NCBI RefSeq assembly: GCF_002091985.1
Contig: NZ_MKKX01000018.1
Span: forward strand, 374,501 to 438,500
DNA from: Rhodococcus sp. 1163
Lineage (GTDB): Bacteria; Actinomycetota; Actinomycetes; Mycobacteriales; Mycobacteriaceae
DNA length: 64,000 bases
Direction: 5' to 3'
Shown here: positions 1 to 10,410 of the stretch, in pieces
Layout of the letters: each line of letters opens with the position of its first letter
Numbering within the stretch: position 1 is the first letter of the stretch
The notes under the pieces: model-generated
Told to the model about the DNA's origin: nothing
What the model saw: the letters and a program-made list of their open reading frames with translations, nothing else
Database searches by the model: none
Translations under genes and position numbers: made by a program

Positions 1-253
1 GACCCAGCCAGCCGACATACGTGCCGAGTCCGATGAGGCCGATCTTACGAGTCTTGGGGTACGCAATGGCAGCACCGACAGCGAGTTCGGTAGCTCCGTT
101 GCGGCTGATCCAGGTCCTGGTGTCGCGAGGGAAAGGACGCTTGGTGATTCCTTCGAACGCCTCGGGAACGACGAAATGCGCGGCACCCGTCGCTGCCAAT
201 ACAATTCCGAACACCTTCGGAACGAGTCCGCCGGACTTCTTCGACTTGCTCAC
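1..253 (-). CDS. DoxX-like small membrane protein (partial, runs off the window start)
   Basis: The minus-strand frame from GTG at 253 stays open to the window edge (84 residues visible). It opens with a lysine-rich tail (VSKSKKSGG), then a hydrophobic segment (VFGIVLAATGAAHFVVP) and an ELAVGAAIAYPKTRKIG block typical of DoxX-like small membrane proteins. The GTG overlaps the TGA of the upstream MetE-family gene (GTGA, 250-253), so translation is probably coupled. Family assignment is by motif impression; the function of these proteins is mostly unknown. The C-terminus lies outside the window. Confidence 0.6.
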   Translation of the reverse strand, partial: MSKSKKSGGLVPKVFGIVLAATGAAHFVVPEAFEGITKRPFPRDTRTWISRNGATELAVGAAIAYPKTRKIGLIGLGTYVGWLG

Positions 254-2550
254 TCTGCTGTCCCCTGTTCTGCGCGTCGGCGCACCCGTCGCGCCGCTGC
301 CACCAAGTTACGCAACGACGGTTCCAGTTGCCAATACTGGCGTGTTTTGAGGCCACCGTCGGGATTGGCCCACAACCGGTCGATGTCGATCGTCGCGGCT
401 GCCTGTGTCAGTAGCTCGTCGAGTTCGTCGATGTCGGGGATACGCGCCGAACGACTCTCGTACACGCCCGGACCGACTCCATGGCTGAGGACGTTCTCCT
501 GCAAAGCACCGAGAACCCAGTCGATGGATCGTGTTGCCACGATCGCCGTGACATCGGCATCGAGGTTCTCGATCGCGTCGACCACCGACGCACGAGTGGA
601 GTACCCCAGATGCGTGTGAATCTGGGTCTCGGCCTTTGCACCCGACGTCGCCAGCCGAAACGCCTCGACCGACCAACGGAGGTATTCTTTGCGCCCCTTC
701 TCACGCGAGGGCAACAGTTCACGCAACGCCGGCTCGTCGACCTGAATGATCCCGATCCCGGCTTTCTCGAGATCGGCGATCTCGTCACGAATGGTCAGGG
801 CAACCTGGTCGGCCACCTCGTGCAGTGGGAGATCCTTCCGCACGAACGAACGGGCGAGCATGGTGACCGGTCCGGTCAGGATTGCTTTGACCGGCTTGTC
901 CGTCAACGACTGCGCGAACGCTGTCCACTCGACGCTCATCGGTTCCGGCCGGGCCACGTCGCCGTACAGAATGGGCGGACGCACGCATCGTGAACCGTAC
1001 GTCTGGACCCACCCGTTGGTCGTCGTGGCGAACCCTTCGAGCGCTTCGGCGAAGAACTGAATCATGTCGTTGCGTTCCACCTCGCCGTTCACCAAGACGT
1101 CGAGCCCGATGTCCTCCTGCAGCCGAATGACCTGCTCGATCTCGTCCTCGACGAGCGCGTGATAGTCAGCAGTATCGATACGGCCCTGTCCCAGTTCGTA
1201 TCTCGCCTGCCTCATTGCCGAAGTTTGCGGGAACGAACCGAGGGTGGTGGCGGGCACCAGCGGAAGATTCAGCTTCTTGTGCTGCGCGATCTTCCGCTCG
1301 GCGTACGGCAGTCGAACCCGCATGTCGGGCGTTACGTTGTAAACCCGGTGCCGCACCGCGTGCTTCTGCTTGAAGTGCACCTCGGTCGGCTTCTTGCGCC
1401 ACCTGTCCGACGGCCCGTCGGTGAGCGCCTTTGCCAAGGCAACGACCTCGCCGACTTTTTGCTTCGCGAACGCAAGACGATCGGCGACGTTGCCGTCGAT
1501 GTCGTACTCGCTCAGCACGTCGTACGGAACGTGCAGCAGTGTCGACGACGTCGAGACGACGAGGTCTTCGCACACCTCTTTCAATCGCTCGAGGTAGTCG
1601 AGCACGACGACGCGGTCGGCACGCCACACGGTGCGGCCGTCGATGACTCCAGCGTAGAGGCGTTTGCGTTTCATTCCGGAAATGGCGGCGAGCTCTTCCG
1701 GCTCGAGCCTGCCTGCGACGAGGTCCAGACCGATTGCCTCGATCTTGGTGGCTGCGAGAATCGGCAGCGCAGGGCCGAGAGACCCGTATTGACCTGTCAC
1801 GAGAAGTCGGGGTCGCAACGCCGTCGTCGACAGGGCGGTGTACGCGCGGTCGAGTGCTGCCAGCTCCTCGGCTGTTCGTTCAGCAGTGAATGCGGGCTCG
1901 TCCAGCTGGACGCAGGTAGCACCTCGCAGGGCAAGCAACTCGAAGAGGGCACTGTACTGCGTAAGCAGATCCCCCAGCCGATCGAGCGGGGAGAATCCTT
2001 GCGCTGCCAGAGATCCGGCCTTGGACAACAACAGCAGCGATACCGGGCCGAGCACAACGGGGCGCAGTTCGATACCGCGGGCCTTCGCCCGATCGAACTC
2101 ATCGAGCAGGCTCTCCGCGTGCAGTGAGAACGGCGTCGACTCGTCGATCTCGGGTTGGCGGTAGAAGTAATTGGAGTCGAAATACCGCACCAGCTCCAGC
2201 GGCGGGAGATCAGGCTTGCCGCGAGCAACGGTGAAGTAGAAATCGAGCGGATGCATCTCCCCTTCGAGCGGGGCGAAGCGCGTCGGAACTGCCCCGAAAA
2301 GCAATGCGTCGTCGAGGACATGATCGTAGAAGGAGAAGGTGTTTCCGGGGACTTGCGTCAACCCGGTTGCATGGAGTTCGTCCCAGGTGTCTTCCTGAAG
2401 GGAACGACCTACGGACTGGAGTGCGGCGCGGGCGGCAGGCGTCGACCTACCGTTCCAGTAGGTCTCGAGTGCGCGCTTCAATTCTCGCCGCGGGCCGATT
2501 CTCGGGTATCCCAGGATGCTCGAACCGAATTCGGCTGCGCTACTCGCCAC
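250..2550 (-). CDS. metE: MetE-family (cobalamin-independent methionine synthase) protein lacking zinc ligands
   Basis: 766 aa, the usual MetE length, with both (beta/alpha)8 halves. The N-terminal half opens GSSILGYPRIGPRRELK; the C-terminal half carries TTLGSFPQT, GEVERNDM, GWVQTYGSRCVRPP and IIQVDEPALRE. Canonical MetE transfers methyl from 5-methyl-tetrahydropteroyl-triglutamate to homocysteine using zinc held by His, Cys, Glu and Cys. Here the His remains (H647 in IHTH) but the Cys two residues on is Gly649, the Glu is Val671 (DADVTAIVATRS) and the second Cys is Gly732 (NPDGGLKTR). Canonical zinc catalysis is therefore doubtful despite an intact reading frame. GTG at 2550 was chosen because GGAAGG precedes it and the family N-terminus starts there. 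It follows fadB2 on the same strand after a hairpin. No B12 riboswitch fits in the 93-bp gap. Confidence 0.85.
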   Translation of the reverse strand: MASSAAEFGSSILGYPRIGPRRELKRALETYWNGRSTPAARAALQSVGRSLQEDTWDELHATGLTQVPGNTFSFYDHVLDDALLFGAVPTRFAPLEGEMHPLDFYFTVARGKPDLPPLELVRYFDSNYFYRQPEIDESTPFSLHAESLLDEFDRAKARGIELRPVVLGPVSLLLLSKAGSLAAQGFSPLDRLGDLLTQYSALFELLALRGATCVQLDEPAFTAERTAEELAALDRAYTALSTTALRPRLLVTGQYGSLGPALPILAATKIEAIGLDLVAGRLEPEELAAISGMKRKRLYAGVIDGRTVWRADRVVVLDYLERLKEVCEDLVVSTSSTLLHVPYDVLSEYDIDGNVADRLAFAKQKVGEVVALAKALTDGPSDRWRKKPTEVHFKQKHAVRHRVYNVTPDMRVRLPYAERKIAQHKKLNLPLVPATTLGSFPQTSAMRQARYELGQGRIDTADYHALVEDEIEQVIRLQEDIGLDVLVNGEVERNDMIQFFAEALEGFATTTNGWVQTYGSRCVRPPILYGDVARPEPMSVEWTAFAQSLTDKPVKAILTGPVTMLARSFVRKDLPLHEVADQVALTIRDEIADLEKAGIGIIQVDEPALRELLPSREKGRKEYLRWSVEAFRLATSGAKAETQIHTHLGYSTRASVVDAIENLDADVTAIVATRSIDWVLGALQENVLSHGVGPGVYESRSARIPDIDELDELLTQAAATIDIDRLWANPDGGLKTRQYWQLEPSLRNLVAAARRVRRRAEQGTAE

Positions 2551-2588
2551 GAAAGGGTTCCTTCCAGTGAGGGTGCAACGGCAGACGC

Positions 2589-2624
2589 GAGTGGGAATAC
2601 GTTGCCGACAACGTATTCCCACTC
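2589..2624. repeat. Perfect 16-bp hairpin between fadB2 and metE (REP-like family 1)
   Basis: GAGTGGGAATACGTTG (2589-2604) is repeated as its exact reverse complement at 2609-2624 around a CCGA loop. It lies after the fadB2 stop and before the metE ribosome-binding site, so it can act as terminator, attenuator or mRNA stabiliser. No T-run follows on either strand. Its right arm read on the minus strand (GCGCAGGTGAGTGGGAAT) matches the hairpin at 10421-10479 almost base for base, suggesting a dispersed repeat family. Confidence 0.8.
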
Positions 2625-2643
2625 ACCTGCGCGAAGCGCCTAC

Positions 2644-3528
2644 CTATTTTGCGAAACGACCGTTCTCGTACTGGTAGAAACCTGATCCGGTCTTCTTGCC
2701 GACCAGCCCTGCCTCGACCATACGTAGCAGAAGCGGCGGGGCGGAGAACAACGGTTCCTTGAACTCTTCGTACATCGAGTCGGCAATCGACTTGACGGTG
2801 TCGAGTCCGACGAGGTCGGCCAATGCCAAGGGCCCCATGGGATGTGCGAGGCCCAGCACTGTCGCTTTGTCCACGTCTTCCTTGGTGGCGAACCCGGACT
2901 CGACCATGCGAATAGCCGAGAGCAGGTACGGCACCAGGAGCGCGTTGACGACGAAACCCGAACGGTCTGCAGACCGGACGACCTGCTTGCCGAGTACTTC
3001 GCTGGCGAATTTCTCCGCACGCTCGGCGACAGCCTGGCTTGTCTTGAGAGTGGTGACGAGCTCGACGAGCGGGAGCACCGGCACCGGGTTGAAGAAATGC
3101 ATACCGACGACACGATCCGGTGACTTGGTCGCAATTCCCAGCTTCATGATGGGGATCGACGACGTGTTGGACGCGAGTACTGCATTCGGGTCCGTCACCA
3201 CCGAATCGAGCTCGGCAAAAATGTCGGCCTTGATCTTCTCGTCCTCGAGAACGGCCTCGACAACGAGCTGACGGTCGGCGAAGTCACTGAGGTCGGAGGT
3301 GAACCGCAACCGCCAGGCTGCCTGCTCACGTTCTCGCTCGGTGATCTTGCCGCTGCTGACACCACGGTCCAACGACCGCAGGATGCGTGCGCGTCCTGCA
3401 GCCGTCAGCTCACGTGTCTGTTCGTAGACCAGCACGTCGACGTGTGCGCGTGCGCACACCTCGGCAATTCCGGCACCCATCTGCCCGATGCCGATAACGC
3501 CGACTCGCTGAATTTTCTCGCTGGTCAC
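2644..3528 (-). CDS. fadB2: 3-hydroxybutyryl-CoA dehydrogenase
   Basis: 294 aa, normal for single-domain 3-hydroxyacyl-CoA dehydrogenases. It has an N-terminal Rossmann fold with the NAD-binding GIGQMGAGIA loop (about 13-22), VVEAVLED, the catalytic region SNTSSIPI and GMHFFNPVPVLPLVELV (active-site His and Glu), and the C-terminal dimerisation domain with SGFVVNALLVPYL and GPLALADLVGLD. It catalyses NAD(P)-linked interconversion of 3-hydroxybutyryl-CoA and acetoacetyl-CoA in fatty-acid, butyrate or PHB metabolism. It lies 44 bp downstream of aceA on the same strand, so the two are probably co-transcribed, as expected for growth on fatty acids or acetate. Confidence 0.92.
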   Translation of the reverse strand: MTSEKIQRVGVIGIGQMGAGIAEVCARAHVDVLVYEQTRELTAAGRARILRSLDRGVSSGKITEREREQAAWRLRFTSDLSDFADRQLVVEAVLEDEKIKADIFAELDSVVTDPNAVLASNTSSIPIMKLGIATKSPDRVVGMHFFNPVPVLPLVELVTTLKTSQAVAERAEKFASEVLGKQVVRSADRSGFVVNALLVPYLLSAIRMVESGFATKEDVDKATVLGLAHPMGPLALADLVGLDTVKSIADSMYEEFKEPLFSAPPLLLRMVEAGLVGKKTGSGFYQYENGRFAK

Positions 3529-3572: not shown

Positions 3573-4862
3573 TCAGTGGAACTGGCCCTCTTCGGTGGAG
3601 CCCTTCAGCGCTGCGGTCGAGGTGTTCGGGTCGACCGTGGTGGCGATGGTGTCGAAGTAGCCTGCGCCGACCTCACGCTGGTGCTTGACGGCGGTGAAGC
3701 CACGCTCTTCGGCAGCCTTGAACTCGCGCTCCTGCAGGTCGACGAACGCCGTCATGCCTTCGCGGGCGTAACCGTGGGCCAGGTCGAACATGCCGTAGTT
3801 GAGCGAGTGGAATCCGGCGAGGGTGATGAACTGGAACTTGAAGCCCATCGCGCCGAGCTCCTTCTGGAACTTGGCGATGGTCGCATCGTCCAGGTGCGCC
3901 TTCCAGTTGAACGAAGGCGAGCAGTTGTAGGCGAGCATCTGGTCCGGGAATTCGCTACGAACCGACTCGGAGAAGCGCTTGGCAACCTCGAGGTCAGGAA
4001 CGCCGGTCTCCATCCAGATGAGGTCCGCGTACGGTGCGTAAGCCTTCGCACGAGCGATGCACGGCTCGATGCCGTTCTTGACGCCGTAGAAACCTTCTGC
4101 GGTGCGGGTTCCGTCGAGGAACTCCACGTCGCGCTCGTCCACATCGGACGTGATGAGGGTTGCGGCCTCGGCGTCGGTGCGGGCGATGATGACCGAGGGG
4201 ACATCGGCGACGTCGGACGCGAGGCGAGCCGAGGTCAGGGTACGGATGTGCTGCTGGGTCGGGATGAGCACCTTGCCACCGAGGTGGCCGCACTTCTTCT
4301 CCGAAGCGAGCTGATCCTCCCAGTGCACACCTGCGGCACCGGCAGCGATCATGGCCTTCTGCAGCTCGTAAGCGTTCAGCGCGCCACCGAATCCTGCTTC
4401 GGCGTCGGCGACCACTGGGGCGAGCCAGTTGCTGACCGAGGTGTCACCCTCGACCTTGGCGATCTCGTCGGCGCGCAGCAGTGCGTTGTTGATGCGGCGA
4501 ACGACGGTCGGCACCGAGTTGGCCGGGTAGAGGCTCTGGTCCGGGTACGTGTGGCCCGAGAGGTTGGCGTCGCCGGCAACCTGCCAGCCGGAGAGGTAGA
4601 TGGCTTTCAGGCCGGCGCGAACCTGCTGCACGGCCTGGTTGCCGGTGAGTGCACCGAGCGAGTTGATGTAGTCCTCGTTGGTCACGAGGTCCCACAGGAT
4701 CTCGGAGCCGCGGCGGGCAAGTGTTGCTTCCTCTACCACGGTGCCCTGCAGCTTGGAAACCTGTTCTGCGGTGAAATTACGCGTCACGCCCTTCCAGCGA
4801 GGGTTGGTGTCCCAATCCTGCTGGATCTCGGCGGTGGTCTTCGGGGTGCCGGTGGTCGACAT
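3573..4862 (-). CDS. aceA: Isocitrate lyase
   Basis: 429 aa, the size of the prokaryotic ICL1 type. It cleaves isocitrate to glyoxylate and succinate in the glyoxylate shunt, needed on acetate and fatty acids. The catalytic signature KKCGHLGGK lies at 189-197 (Cys191 nucleophile); [31 protein letters not shown] and the NCSPSFNWK substrate loop are all present. The ATG at 4862 gives the familiar start [17 protein letters not shown]. The gene heads an aceA-fadB2 unit. The upstream region holds a RamB-like box and a GlxR/CRP-like site, and the ramB regulator lies about 1 kb away on the opposite strand. Confidence 0.97.
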
Positions 4863-8646: not shown

Positions 8647-8880
8647 TCATGTCTCCGGTTGTGCCGCGGGCACTTCGCCTGTCGCGAAAAGTGTTTCGAC
8701 GGTGGTGTTCAATGCTGCGGCCAGCTCGAGCGCCAAATAGACACTGGGGGCATAGTCGCCTCCTTCGACGGAGACGATGCTCTGCCTACTGACTCCACAT
8801 GCTCTACCCAGCTCCGCCTGGGTGAGCCGGGCCGCTTTTCGGTGTTCACGCACCGTGTTGGTCCTGAGTGCGGCAGCCAT
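8647..8880 (-). CDS. Small XRE-family transcriptional regulator
   Basis: 77 aa from ATG 8880. Nearly the whole protein is a Cro/C1-type helix-turn-helix: VREHRKAARLTQAELGRACG, VSRQSIVSVEGGDYAPSVYL, ALELAAALNTTVETLF. It has the size and VSRQSIVSVE recognition helix of the YozG-like regulators that control an adjacent membrane-protein gene. A TTG at 8892 would add four residues. Two direct copies of CGATGACAAGT lie just upstream, probably its own operator. Confidence 0.85.
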   Translation of the reverse strand: MAAALRTNTVREHRKAARLTQAELGRACGVSRQSIVSVEGGDYAPSVYLALELAAALNTTVETLFATGEVPAAQPET

Positions 8881-8896
8881 GACGAAAGTCAAGCGG

Positions 8897-8930
8897 ACTT
8901 GTCATCGAATGTCAACCCTACTTGTCATCG
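8897..8930 (-). promoter_or_regulatory. Direct-repeat operator upstream of the XRE gene
   Basis: ACTTGTCATCG occurs at 8897-8907 and again at 8920-8930, a 23-bp period (about two helical turns), with CAAGCGG flanking on both outer sides. On the minus strand a TTGACA lies between the copies. Position and spacing suggest autoregulation by the XRE protein or the promoter itself; this is inference. Confidence 0.5.
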
Positions 8931-9014
8931 CCAAGCGGCAAGCCACATCCATTTCTGCAGGGTTCGACATCGCCGAAGCCCTTCCCCTCGGACGAATCAT
9001 CCACGCGCCGAGAA

Positions 9015-9032
9015 GTTAACAGCGGCGTAACG
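9015..9032 (+). promoter_or_regulatory. GlnR-like box upstream of urtA
   Basis: GTTAACAGCGGCGTAACG contains AC (9019-9020), nine bases, then AC (9030-9031), the AC-N9-AC pattern described for GlnR, the global nitrogen regulator of mycobacteria and relatives. It lies about 105 bp before urtA, a nitrogen-scavenging transporter, which is the expected target type. The rest of the 8931-9135 gap shows no ORF. Confidence 0.5.
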
Positions 9033-9135
9033 GACGAAATAGAGCCGTCACCGGGCAACATATCCGCGCAATACTTCCCCTTTACTGTCTGCAATCGCGA
9101 ATACAACTCCGTATACAAGCGAAAGGGCGTCAAAG

Positions 9136-10410
9136 ATGCCTGCAGTTTCCTCGAGCAAGATGGCCACACGTGTACTGGTTGCTCCTCTCGCTCTGGCCAT
9201 GGTCGGTTTGGCGCTCACCTCGTGCGGTAGCAAAGCCGGTGACACCACCTCAGCTGACGGCGCGGCAGCAGCCGAATCCTGTGTCGACACATCCGGCGAC
9301 ACCATCAAGGTCGGCTCGCTCAACTCGCTCTCCGGAACCATGGCGATCAGCGAAGTGACGGTGCGTGATTCGATCGCCCTGGCCATCGAAGAGATCAACG
9401 CATCAGGTGGAGTCGACGGCAAGCAGATCCAGGTCGTCGCCGAGGACGGCGCGTCCGAGCCCACAATGTTCGCCGAGAAGGCCGAGAAGCTGATCAGCAG
9501 TGACTGTGTCGCAGCCGTTTTCGGCGGTTGGACGTCGTCGAGCCGTAAGGCGATGTTGCCGGTGTTCGAGGACAACGACGCGCTGCTCTACTACCCCGTC
9601 CAGTACGAGGGCCTCGAGTCCTCGGACAACATCTTCTATACCGGTGCAACCACGAATCAGCAGATCATCCCCGCACTCGATTACCTGAAGGAAAAGGGCG
9701 TCAAGTCTCTGTATCTGGTCGGTAGCGACTATGTATTCCCGCAGACCGCCAACCGTGAGATCAAGGCTTACGCAGCTGCCAACGGTATCGAGATCAAGGG
9801 TGAGGACTACACCCCGCTCGGTTCGACCGACTTCTCCACTATCGTGAACAAAGTCCGCTCCGCCGACGCCGATGCCGTGTTCAACACTCTCAACGGTGAT
9901 TCCAATGTCGCTTTCTTCCGCGAATACACCAACGCGGGCCTCAAAGCTGCTGACATGCCGGTCCTCTCGGTATCCATTGCCGAGGAAGAAGTTGCCGGAA
10001 TCGGCGCGCAGAACATCGAAGGCCAGTTGACCGCGTGGAACTACTACCAGACTGTCGACAGTCCGGAAAACAAGAAGTTCGTCGCCGACTACAAGGCGAA
10101 ATATGGCGCGGACAAGCCCACCTCCGACCCGATGGAAGCCGCCTACACCTCGGTGTACCTGTGGAAGAACACCGTGGAGAAGGCAAACTCCTTCGCAGTC
10201 GGTGACATTCAAGCCGCAGCGGATGGCGTCAGCTTCGCCGCTCCCGAAGGTGAGGTCGTCATCGACGGCGCAAACCACCACATCTCGAAGACTGCACGTA
10301 TCGGCGAAGTCCGCCCCGACGGCCTGATCTACACCGTCTGGGAATCCCCGGCACCGATCGCACCCGATCCGTTCCTCGAGACCTACGAGTGGGCTTCCGA
10401 CCTCAACTAA
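9136..10410 (+). CDS. urtA: Urea/short-chain amide ABC transporter, substrate-binding lipoprotein
   Basis: 424 aa. The signal peptide ends in the lipobox LTSC (Cys30), so the mature protein is a membrane-anchored lipoprotein. The remainder is a type I periplasmic-binding fold with the UrtA/FmdD-type segments IKVGSLNSLSGTMAISE, FGGWTSSSRKAMLPVFE, LLYYPVQYEGLESS and FYTGATTNQQIIPALDYL. Known family members capture urea or short amides. It is the first gene of urtABCDE and is followed by a hairpin (10421-10479) before urtB, which could keep the binding protein more abundant than the permease. No urease genes are in this window. Confidence 0.93.
   Translation: MPAVSSSKMATRVLVAPLALAMVGLALTSCGSKAGDTTSADGAAAAESCVDTSGDTIKVGSLNSLSGTMAISEVTVRDSIALAIEEINASGGVDGKQIQVVAEDGASEPTMFAEKAEKLISSDCVAAVFGGWTSSSRKAMLPVFEDNDALLYYPVQYEGLESSDNIFYTGATTNQQIIPALDYLKEKGVKSLYLVGSDYVFPQTANREIKAYAAANGIEIKGEDYTPLGSTDFSTIVNKVRSADADAVFNTLNGDSNVAFFREYTNAGLKAADMPVLSVSIAEEEVAGIGAQNIEGQLTAWNYYQTVDSPENKKFVADYKAKYGADKPTSDPMEAAYTSVYLWKNTVEKANSFAVGDIQAAADGVSFAAPEGEVVIDGANHHISKTARIGEVRPDGLIYTVWESPAPIAPDPFLETYEWASDLN

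Follow-up and report, generated by a model that had tools for sequence, protein, structure and literature searches.

A zinc-less clade of full-length MetE paralogues in Rhodococcus, Nocardia, and relatives with a putative role in sulphur starvation

MetE is a textbook zinc enzyme, and the locus described here raises the question of what a full-length MetE does when three of its four zinc ligands are gone. The gene, metE' (250..2550, minus strand, GTG start at 2550), lies in a 64,000-nucleotide stretch of the genome of Rhodococcus sp. 1163 (contig NZ_MKKX01000018.1, positions 374,501 to 438,500), referred to here as the window, and encodes a paralogue of 766 aa in a frame that is open from end to end without disruption. 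In profile searches the Pfam models Meth_synt_1 and Meth_synt_2 both match the product over nearly its whole length, so that the two-barrel architecture (PF08267 and PF01717) is present, as a preliminary description of this DNA had claimed. An AlphaFold2 model of the product has the MetE fold (pLDDT 87.6), and the predicted fold is closest to that of closed C. albicans MetE (TM 0.91).

Zinc ligands were assigned by alignment to solved MetEs, and residue numbers were mapped in the same way to E. coli MetE, the ligands of which are H641, C643, E665, and C726 (PMC7857596). At these positions the window protein reads His647 (610..612), Gly649 (604..606), Val671 (538..540), and Gly732 (355..357; all on the minus strand), confirming the reported loss of three of the four ligands. 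To determine how widely this form occurs, we collected homologs from related genomes. Seven other genomes of the window's genus carry copies that are 84–98% identical, scanning named genomes yielded 80 loci (71–98% identical) from Rhodococcus, Nocardia, Antrihabitans, Skermania, Aldersonia, and relatives, and 33 additional loci were contributed by genera within the window's GTDB family. The resulting alignment set consists of 114 zinc-less proteins, that is, the window protein and those of 113 other loci, from 24 genera of one GTDB family; because some species sit in both sets, this number counts sequences rather than species. The proteins are 60–98% identical to the window protein, and when the Gly/Val/Gly positions are aligned across the clade the same three ligands are absent from all 114, which leaves only the first residue of the His, Cys, Glu, Cys set that defines a MetE. 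The canonical MetEs in the comparison have intact ligands in 40 of 40 cases. At the position of C643 the clade has G, T, S, P, A, N, or E but never Cys; the position of E665 is V or I in every sequence, and that of C726 is G in 113 sequences and F in one. Proteins with intact Cys, Glu, and Cys, which as orthologues in close relatives would have pointed to a sequencing error, form a separate canonical clade with approximately 50% identity.

The zinc-less proteins are monophyletic in the tree and sit on a long stem; however, with E. coli as sole outgroup the clade node has a local support of 0.66, and precisely where the clade branches off is therefore uncertain. Within the clade, dN/dS is 0.09–0.17 (about 0.1), indicating purifying selection. 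Among 251 surveyed genomes of the family, the zinc-less form is encoded in 139, which represent 24 of 31 genera, and 88 of these carriers also encode a second full-length MetE whereas 51 do not. Zinc-less relatives were not found beyond the family, the best matches in the order and the phylum (52–56% identity) all being canonical.

Roles in homocysteine and folate contacts were taken from the structures of T. maritima MetE (PMC539065), and their transfer to E. coli numbers is our own alignment mapping. This comparison revealed two losses in addition to those described earlier. The His of the DIHSP motif (E. coli H694, T. maritima His672), a candidate proton donor, is replaced by Arg700 (451..453, minus strand; Arg in 112 of the 114 sequences). 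The Trp that stacks on the pterin (E. coli W561, T. maritima Trp539) is replaced by Arg567 (850..852, minus strand), this position being Arg in 103 of the 114 sequences and Trp in none. Lys117 (E. coli numbering) is also lost from the clade, with Arg in its place in 86 of 114 sequences. The HGE to NGE change that had been listed with the ligand losses is real in the window but local, being present in 7 of 114 clade members. The residues that hold homocysteine (Ser433, Glu484, Asp599, and Met490 in E. coli numbers) are kept in 114 of 114, including the Ser, Glu, and Asp that contact its amino and carboxyl groups. The methyl-folate site is mixed: Glu605 is kept in 92% of the clade and the glutamate-tail residues Arg17, Lys20, Arg515, and Arg518 in 99–100%, whereas Trp561 and His694 are gone. 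Both His of IHTH are nearly always present. Several replacement residues are themselves conserved, namely Val671, Gly732, Arg700, a Trp at E. coli position 672, and a Glu at position 692. Inspection of the list of clade-specific positions, as distinct from their geometry, revealed no new conserved His, Cys, Asp, or Glu that could substitute as a zinc ligand.

Domain models also separate the clade from MetE (EC 2.1.1.14). The curated TIGR01371 model has a cut-off of 929.95 bits, which the canonical paralogue from the same genome passes with 1,055 bits, whereas the window protein scores 858 bits and the clade 811–894 bits. The zinc-less proteins are annotated as metE because they pass the laxer PRK05222 model. 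They share with MetE both barrels, the full length, the predicted fold, the contacts to the homocysteine amino and carboxyl groups and most of those to folate, and 50–56% identity to actinobacterial canonical MetE, but differ from it by the missing ligands, DIHSP His, and pterin Trp as well as by the TIGR01371 score. The core methionine synthases MesA–MesD belong to the same MetE superfamily, and the MesB-like proteins of Chloroflexales also lack zinc ligands (PMC7857596); however, these proteins consist of the catalytic barrel alone, whereas the metE' product keeps the N-terminal barrel and belongs to the full-length MetE branch. We found no publication describing a zinc-less full-length MetE in the literature searched, most of which was available without subscription.

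Wherever a locus extends far enough, and across the 24 genera, metE' is preceded in the same orientation by fadB2 (3-hydroxyacyl-CoA dehydrogenase; 2644..3528, minus strand) and, as second upstream neighbor, aceA (isocitrate lyase; 3573..4862, minus strand). The reported position behind fadB2 is thus part of a conserved aceA–fadB2 linkage and, because these genes lie upstream in every such locus, metE' has been inherited vertically at a fixed position. The coupling to a DoxX-like gene (1..253, minus strand), which overlaps the metE' stop by 4 bases, is present in the window but confined to the window's own genus (the product is 91 aa in locus L113), and we therefore dropped DoxX as a functional partner. 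Between fadB2 and metE' lies a long hairpin (2587..2626, minus strand), and a strong hairpin of unrelated sequence occurs here in most sampled species, which suggests that metE' is transcribed separately from fadB2. Across the gaps of the window and of loci L033-L102, very stable hairpins with unrelated stems occur in most species, and the structure seems to be kept while the sequence turns over. No riboswitch or other Rfam RNA reached the gathering threshold upstream of metE' in nine loci, the window hairpin giving a sub-threshold match to a miRNA model only. A zinc-type alcohol dehydrogenase gene is found near metE' on the downstream side in about 44 of 106 loci and is not a constant neighbor; it lies directly or shortly downstream in many Rhodococcus and some Nocardia, for example at 8832-9917 (minus strand) of L113.

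It had been proposed that methionine synthesis must work differently in this organism if its genome has no other metE or metH. A search for both genes does not bear this out: the same assembly encodes a canonical MetE on another contig (C33), with the motifs IHTHLCYS, TSIEAARS, NPDCG, and YDIHSPR, and a MetH that matches PF02965, which would leave the paralogue free to change. MetH is lacking from none of the 51 genomes with the zinc-less form only (95% upper bound 5.7%), and the two clade-bearing genomes without a MetH match both have a canonical MetE. Thus, the family survey, in which few genomes are informative on this point, contains no genome with metE' as the only methionine synthase. 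This pattern would fit a protein that does not take the place of methionine synthase, but the co-occurrence with MetH is weak evidence because nearly all MetH-less genomes of the family belong to a genus without metE'.

An expression link comes from one published proteome, which covers one condition pair in one strain, R. qingshengii IGTS8 (PMC8557817). A protein called 'MetE' (IGTS8_peg5907) is reported there to be 190–273-fold more abundant on dibenzothiophene than on sulphate, with glucose in both arms; it is said to contain 2 cysteines and 7 methionines, is among the ten most abundant proteins of the sulphur proteome, and is induced alongside MetY in the sulphate-starved cells. The numbering of the IGTS8 genes (MetE 5907, AtsA1 5938, TauD 5939, ROK 5940, MshA 5948; PMC8557817) agrees with the complete genome of a close relative, in which mshA, ROK, TauD, and sulfatase genes are followed by about 26 called ORFs and then by metE', and in which about 655 kb separate the canonical metE from this locus. 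In the nearest group the zinc-less proteins contain 2 Cys and, with the start included, 8 Met (1–3 Cys in more distant members), whereas canonical MetEs of this group contain 4 Cys or more. Both the gene order and the number of cysteines therefore indicate that the induced protein is the orthologue of the metE' product and not the canonical MetE. The study, as far as its accessible text goes, reads this protein as a working cobalamin-independent methionine synthase to which it attributes boosted methionine synthesis, and does not mention missing zinc ligands (PMC8557817). In Gordonia, the main texts of sulphur studies name no methionine synthase.

That the loss of ligands in an undegraded frame points to a changed function, as the preliminary description held, agrees with losses that are fixed in a clade that is large, inherited vertically, and subject to purifying selection. 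Our best reading is that the metE' product is misannotated and is not a zinc-thiolate methionine synthase. Because the ligands, the candidate acid His, and the pterin Trp are gone throughout a conserved clade that keeps the amino-acid and most folate residues, we regard metE' as a probable (about 0.6) neofunctionalised MetE paralogue with a changed, zinc-free function in sulphur starvation, a reading that derives from comparison of sequences and, for the sulphur part, from the one published proteome. The protein would bind an alpha-amino acid, and probably also a polyglutamyl folate, between the two barrels without a metal and would work in the sulphur-starvation response. We tentatively suggest, with the odds leaning against it, that it carries a new activity of the MetE fold, in which a sulphur (or other alpha-) amino acid would be transformed in a folate-dependent reaction without a metal; with similar reserve, such an activity would let Rhodococcus, Nocardia, and relatives obtain or spare sulphur, hidden under the annotation metE. 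More specifically, and as no more than a guess at low odds, the likeliest chemistry would be one in which folate exchanges a methyl group with a sulphur amino acid for which thiolate activation is unnecessary, for instance the tetrahydrofolate (THF)-dependent demethylation of a sulphonium such as S-methylmethionine, and the replacement of Cys/Glu/Cys by small or hydrophobic residues would enlarge the acceptor pocket. In the DMSP demethylase DmdA and other THF-dependent demethylases, which have a GcvT-like fold, THF takes the methyl group from a sulphonium; given the different fold, this would be a possible functional analogy only, and we claim no sequence relation. Folate methyl chemistry of any kind is made less plausible by the absence of His694 and of the Trp that stacks on the pterin.

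Several of these facts can also be read in other ways. Induction under sulphate starvation is equally expected of a methionine synthase, and the induced protein may contain few cysteines simply to spare sulphur. An isoform for low-sulphur conditions that still makes methionine, zinc-free or with a metal at a rebuilt site, would explain the strong induction together with MetY in IGTS8, the retained homocysteine and most folate contacts, and the two His of IHTH, but we consider it distinctly unlikely: no conserved replacement ligand is seen among the clade-specific positions, the C643 position varies freely, the candidate acid His and pterin Trp are lost too, and, with few relevant MetH-less genomes to judge by, no genome has it as its only methionine synthase (MetH is missing from 0 of 51). 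The constant presence of aceA and fadB2 next to the gene suggests a link to acetate or fatty-acid metabolism and not to sulphur. Accordingly, an enzyme derived from MetE might work alongside isocitrate lyase and FadB2, its substrate being a carboxylate or an acyl compound and the anion being bound by Arg567 and Arg700, new conserved residues in the cleft. This proposal is unlikely in our view, as the amino-acid pocket is untouched, the hairpin in most species suggests separate expression, and the single expression data set, in which glucose was supplied in both conditions, shows control by sulphur.

A somewhat unlikely alternative is a non-catalytic pseudoenzyme that binds homocysteine or methionine together with folate and serves as a sensor, a sink, or a partner of MetH, canonical MetE, or the glyoxylate-shunt enzymes. 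Binding residues are indeed retained while catalytic ones are lost, MetH is always present where canonical MetE is absent, and the reported rank of the IGTS8 protein in the top ten of the sulphur proteome (PMC8557817) would suit a sink; however, such a protein has no known partner, and the conservation of the substitutions at the lost positions suggests a remodeled working site rather than relaxed catalysis. A decaying pseudogene or a sequencing error would also account for the lost catalytic residues, but the chance of this is negligible, because the same losses occur in the 113 other loci, and thus in independent assemblies, all homologs are open, dN/dS is about 0.1, and the orthologue was apparently detected as an abundant protein.

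A large, old, and selected clade of full-length proteins without the zinc site of MetE implies that a new reaction, or else a new regulatory role, has arisen. In addition, metE calls become unreliable for the genomes of Rhodococcus, Nocardia, and related bacteria and for metabolic models, because the 51 of 251 family genomes with the zinc-less form only would score as making methionine without B12. Likewise, the conclusion that methionine synthesis is boosted through MetE under biodesulphurisation in IGTS8, and the proposal of a MetE knockout to improve desulphurisation, both as given in PMC8557817, appear to concern the zinc-less protein.

The survey also yielded observations on other methionine synthase-like proteins. 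The window genome encodes a third PF01717 protein (locus L003 on contig C38, 1462-2487, plus strand; about 342 aa, 85.6 bits) just downstream of an mnmA-like (tRNA thiouridylase-like) gene, and a short MetE-like protein of this sort is present in many relatives. Full-length MetE, whether canonical or zinc-less, is missing from many genomes, among them about half of those in the window's own genus, and these genomes apparently depend on MetH. Two kinds of MetH occur in the family, and in one of them the activation domain is divergent or shortened: in most genera PF02965 is matched over positions 48-258 only (about 110–130 bits), often past a stop, whereas it is matched fully (about 430 bits) in two genera (g11 and g29) and part of a third (g30).
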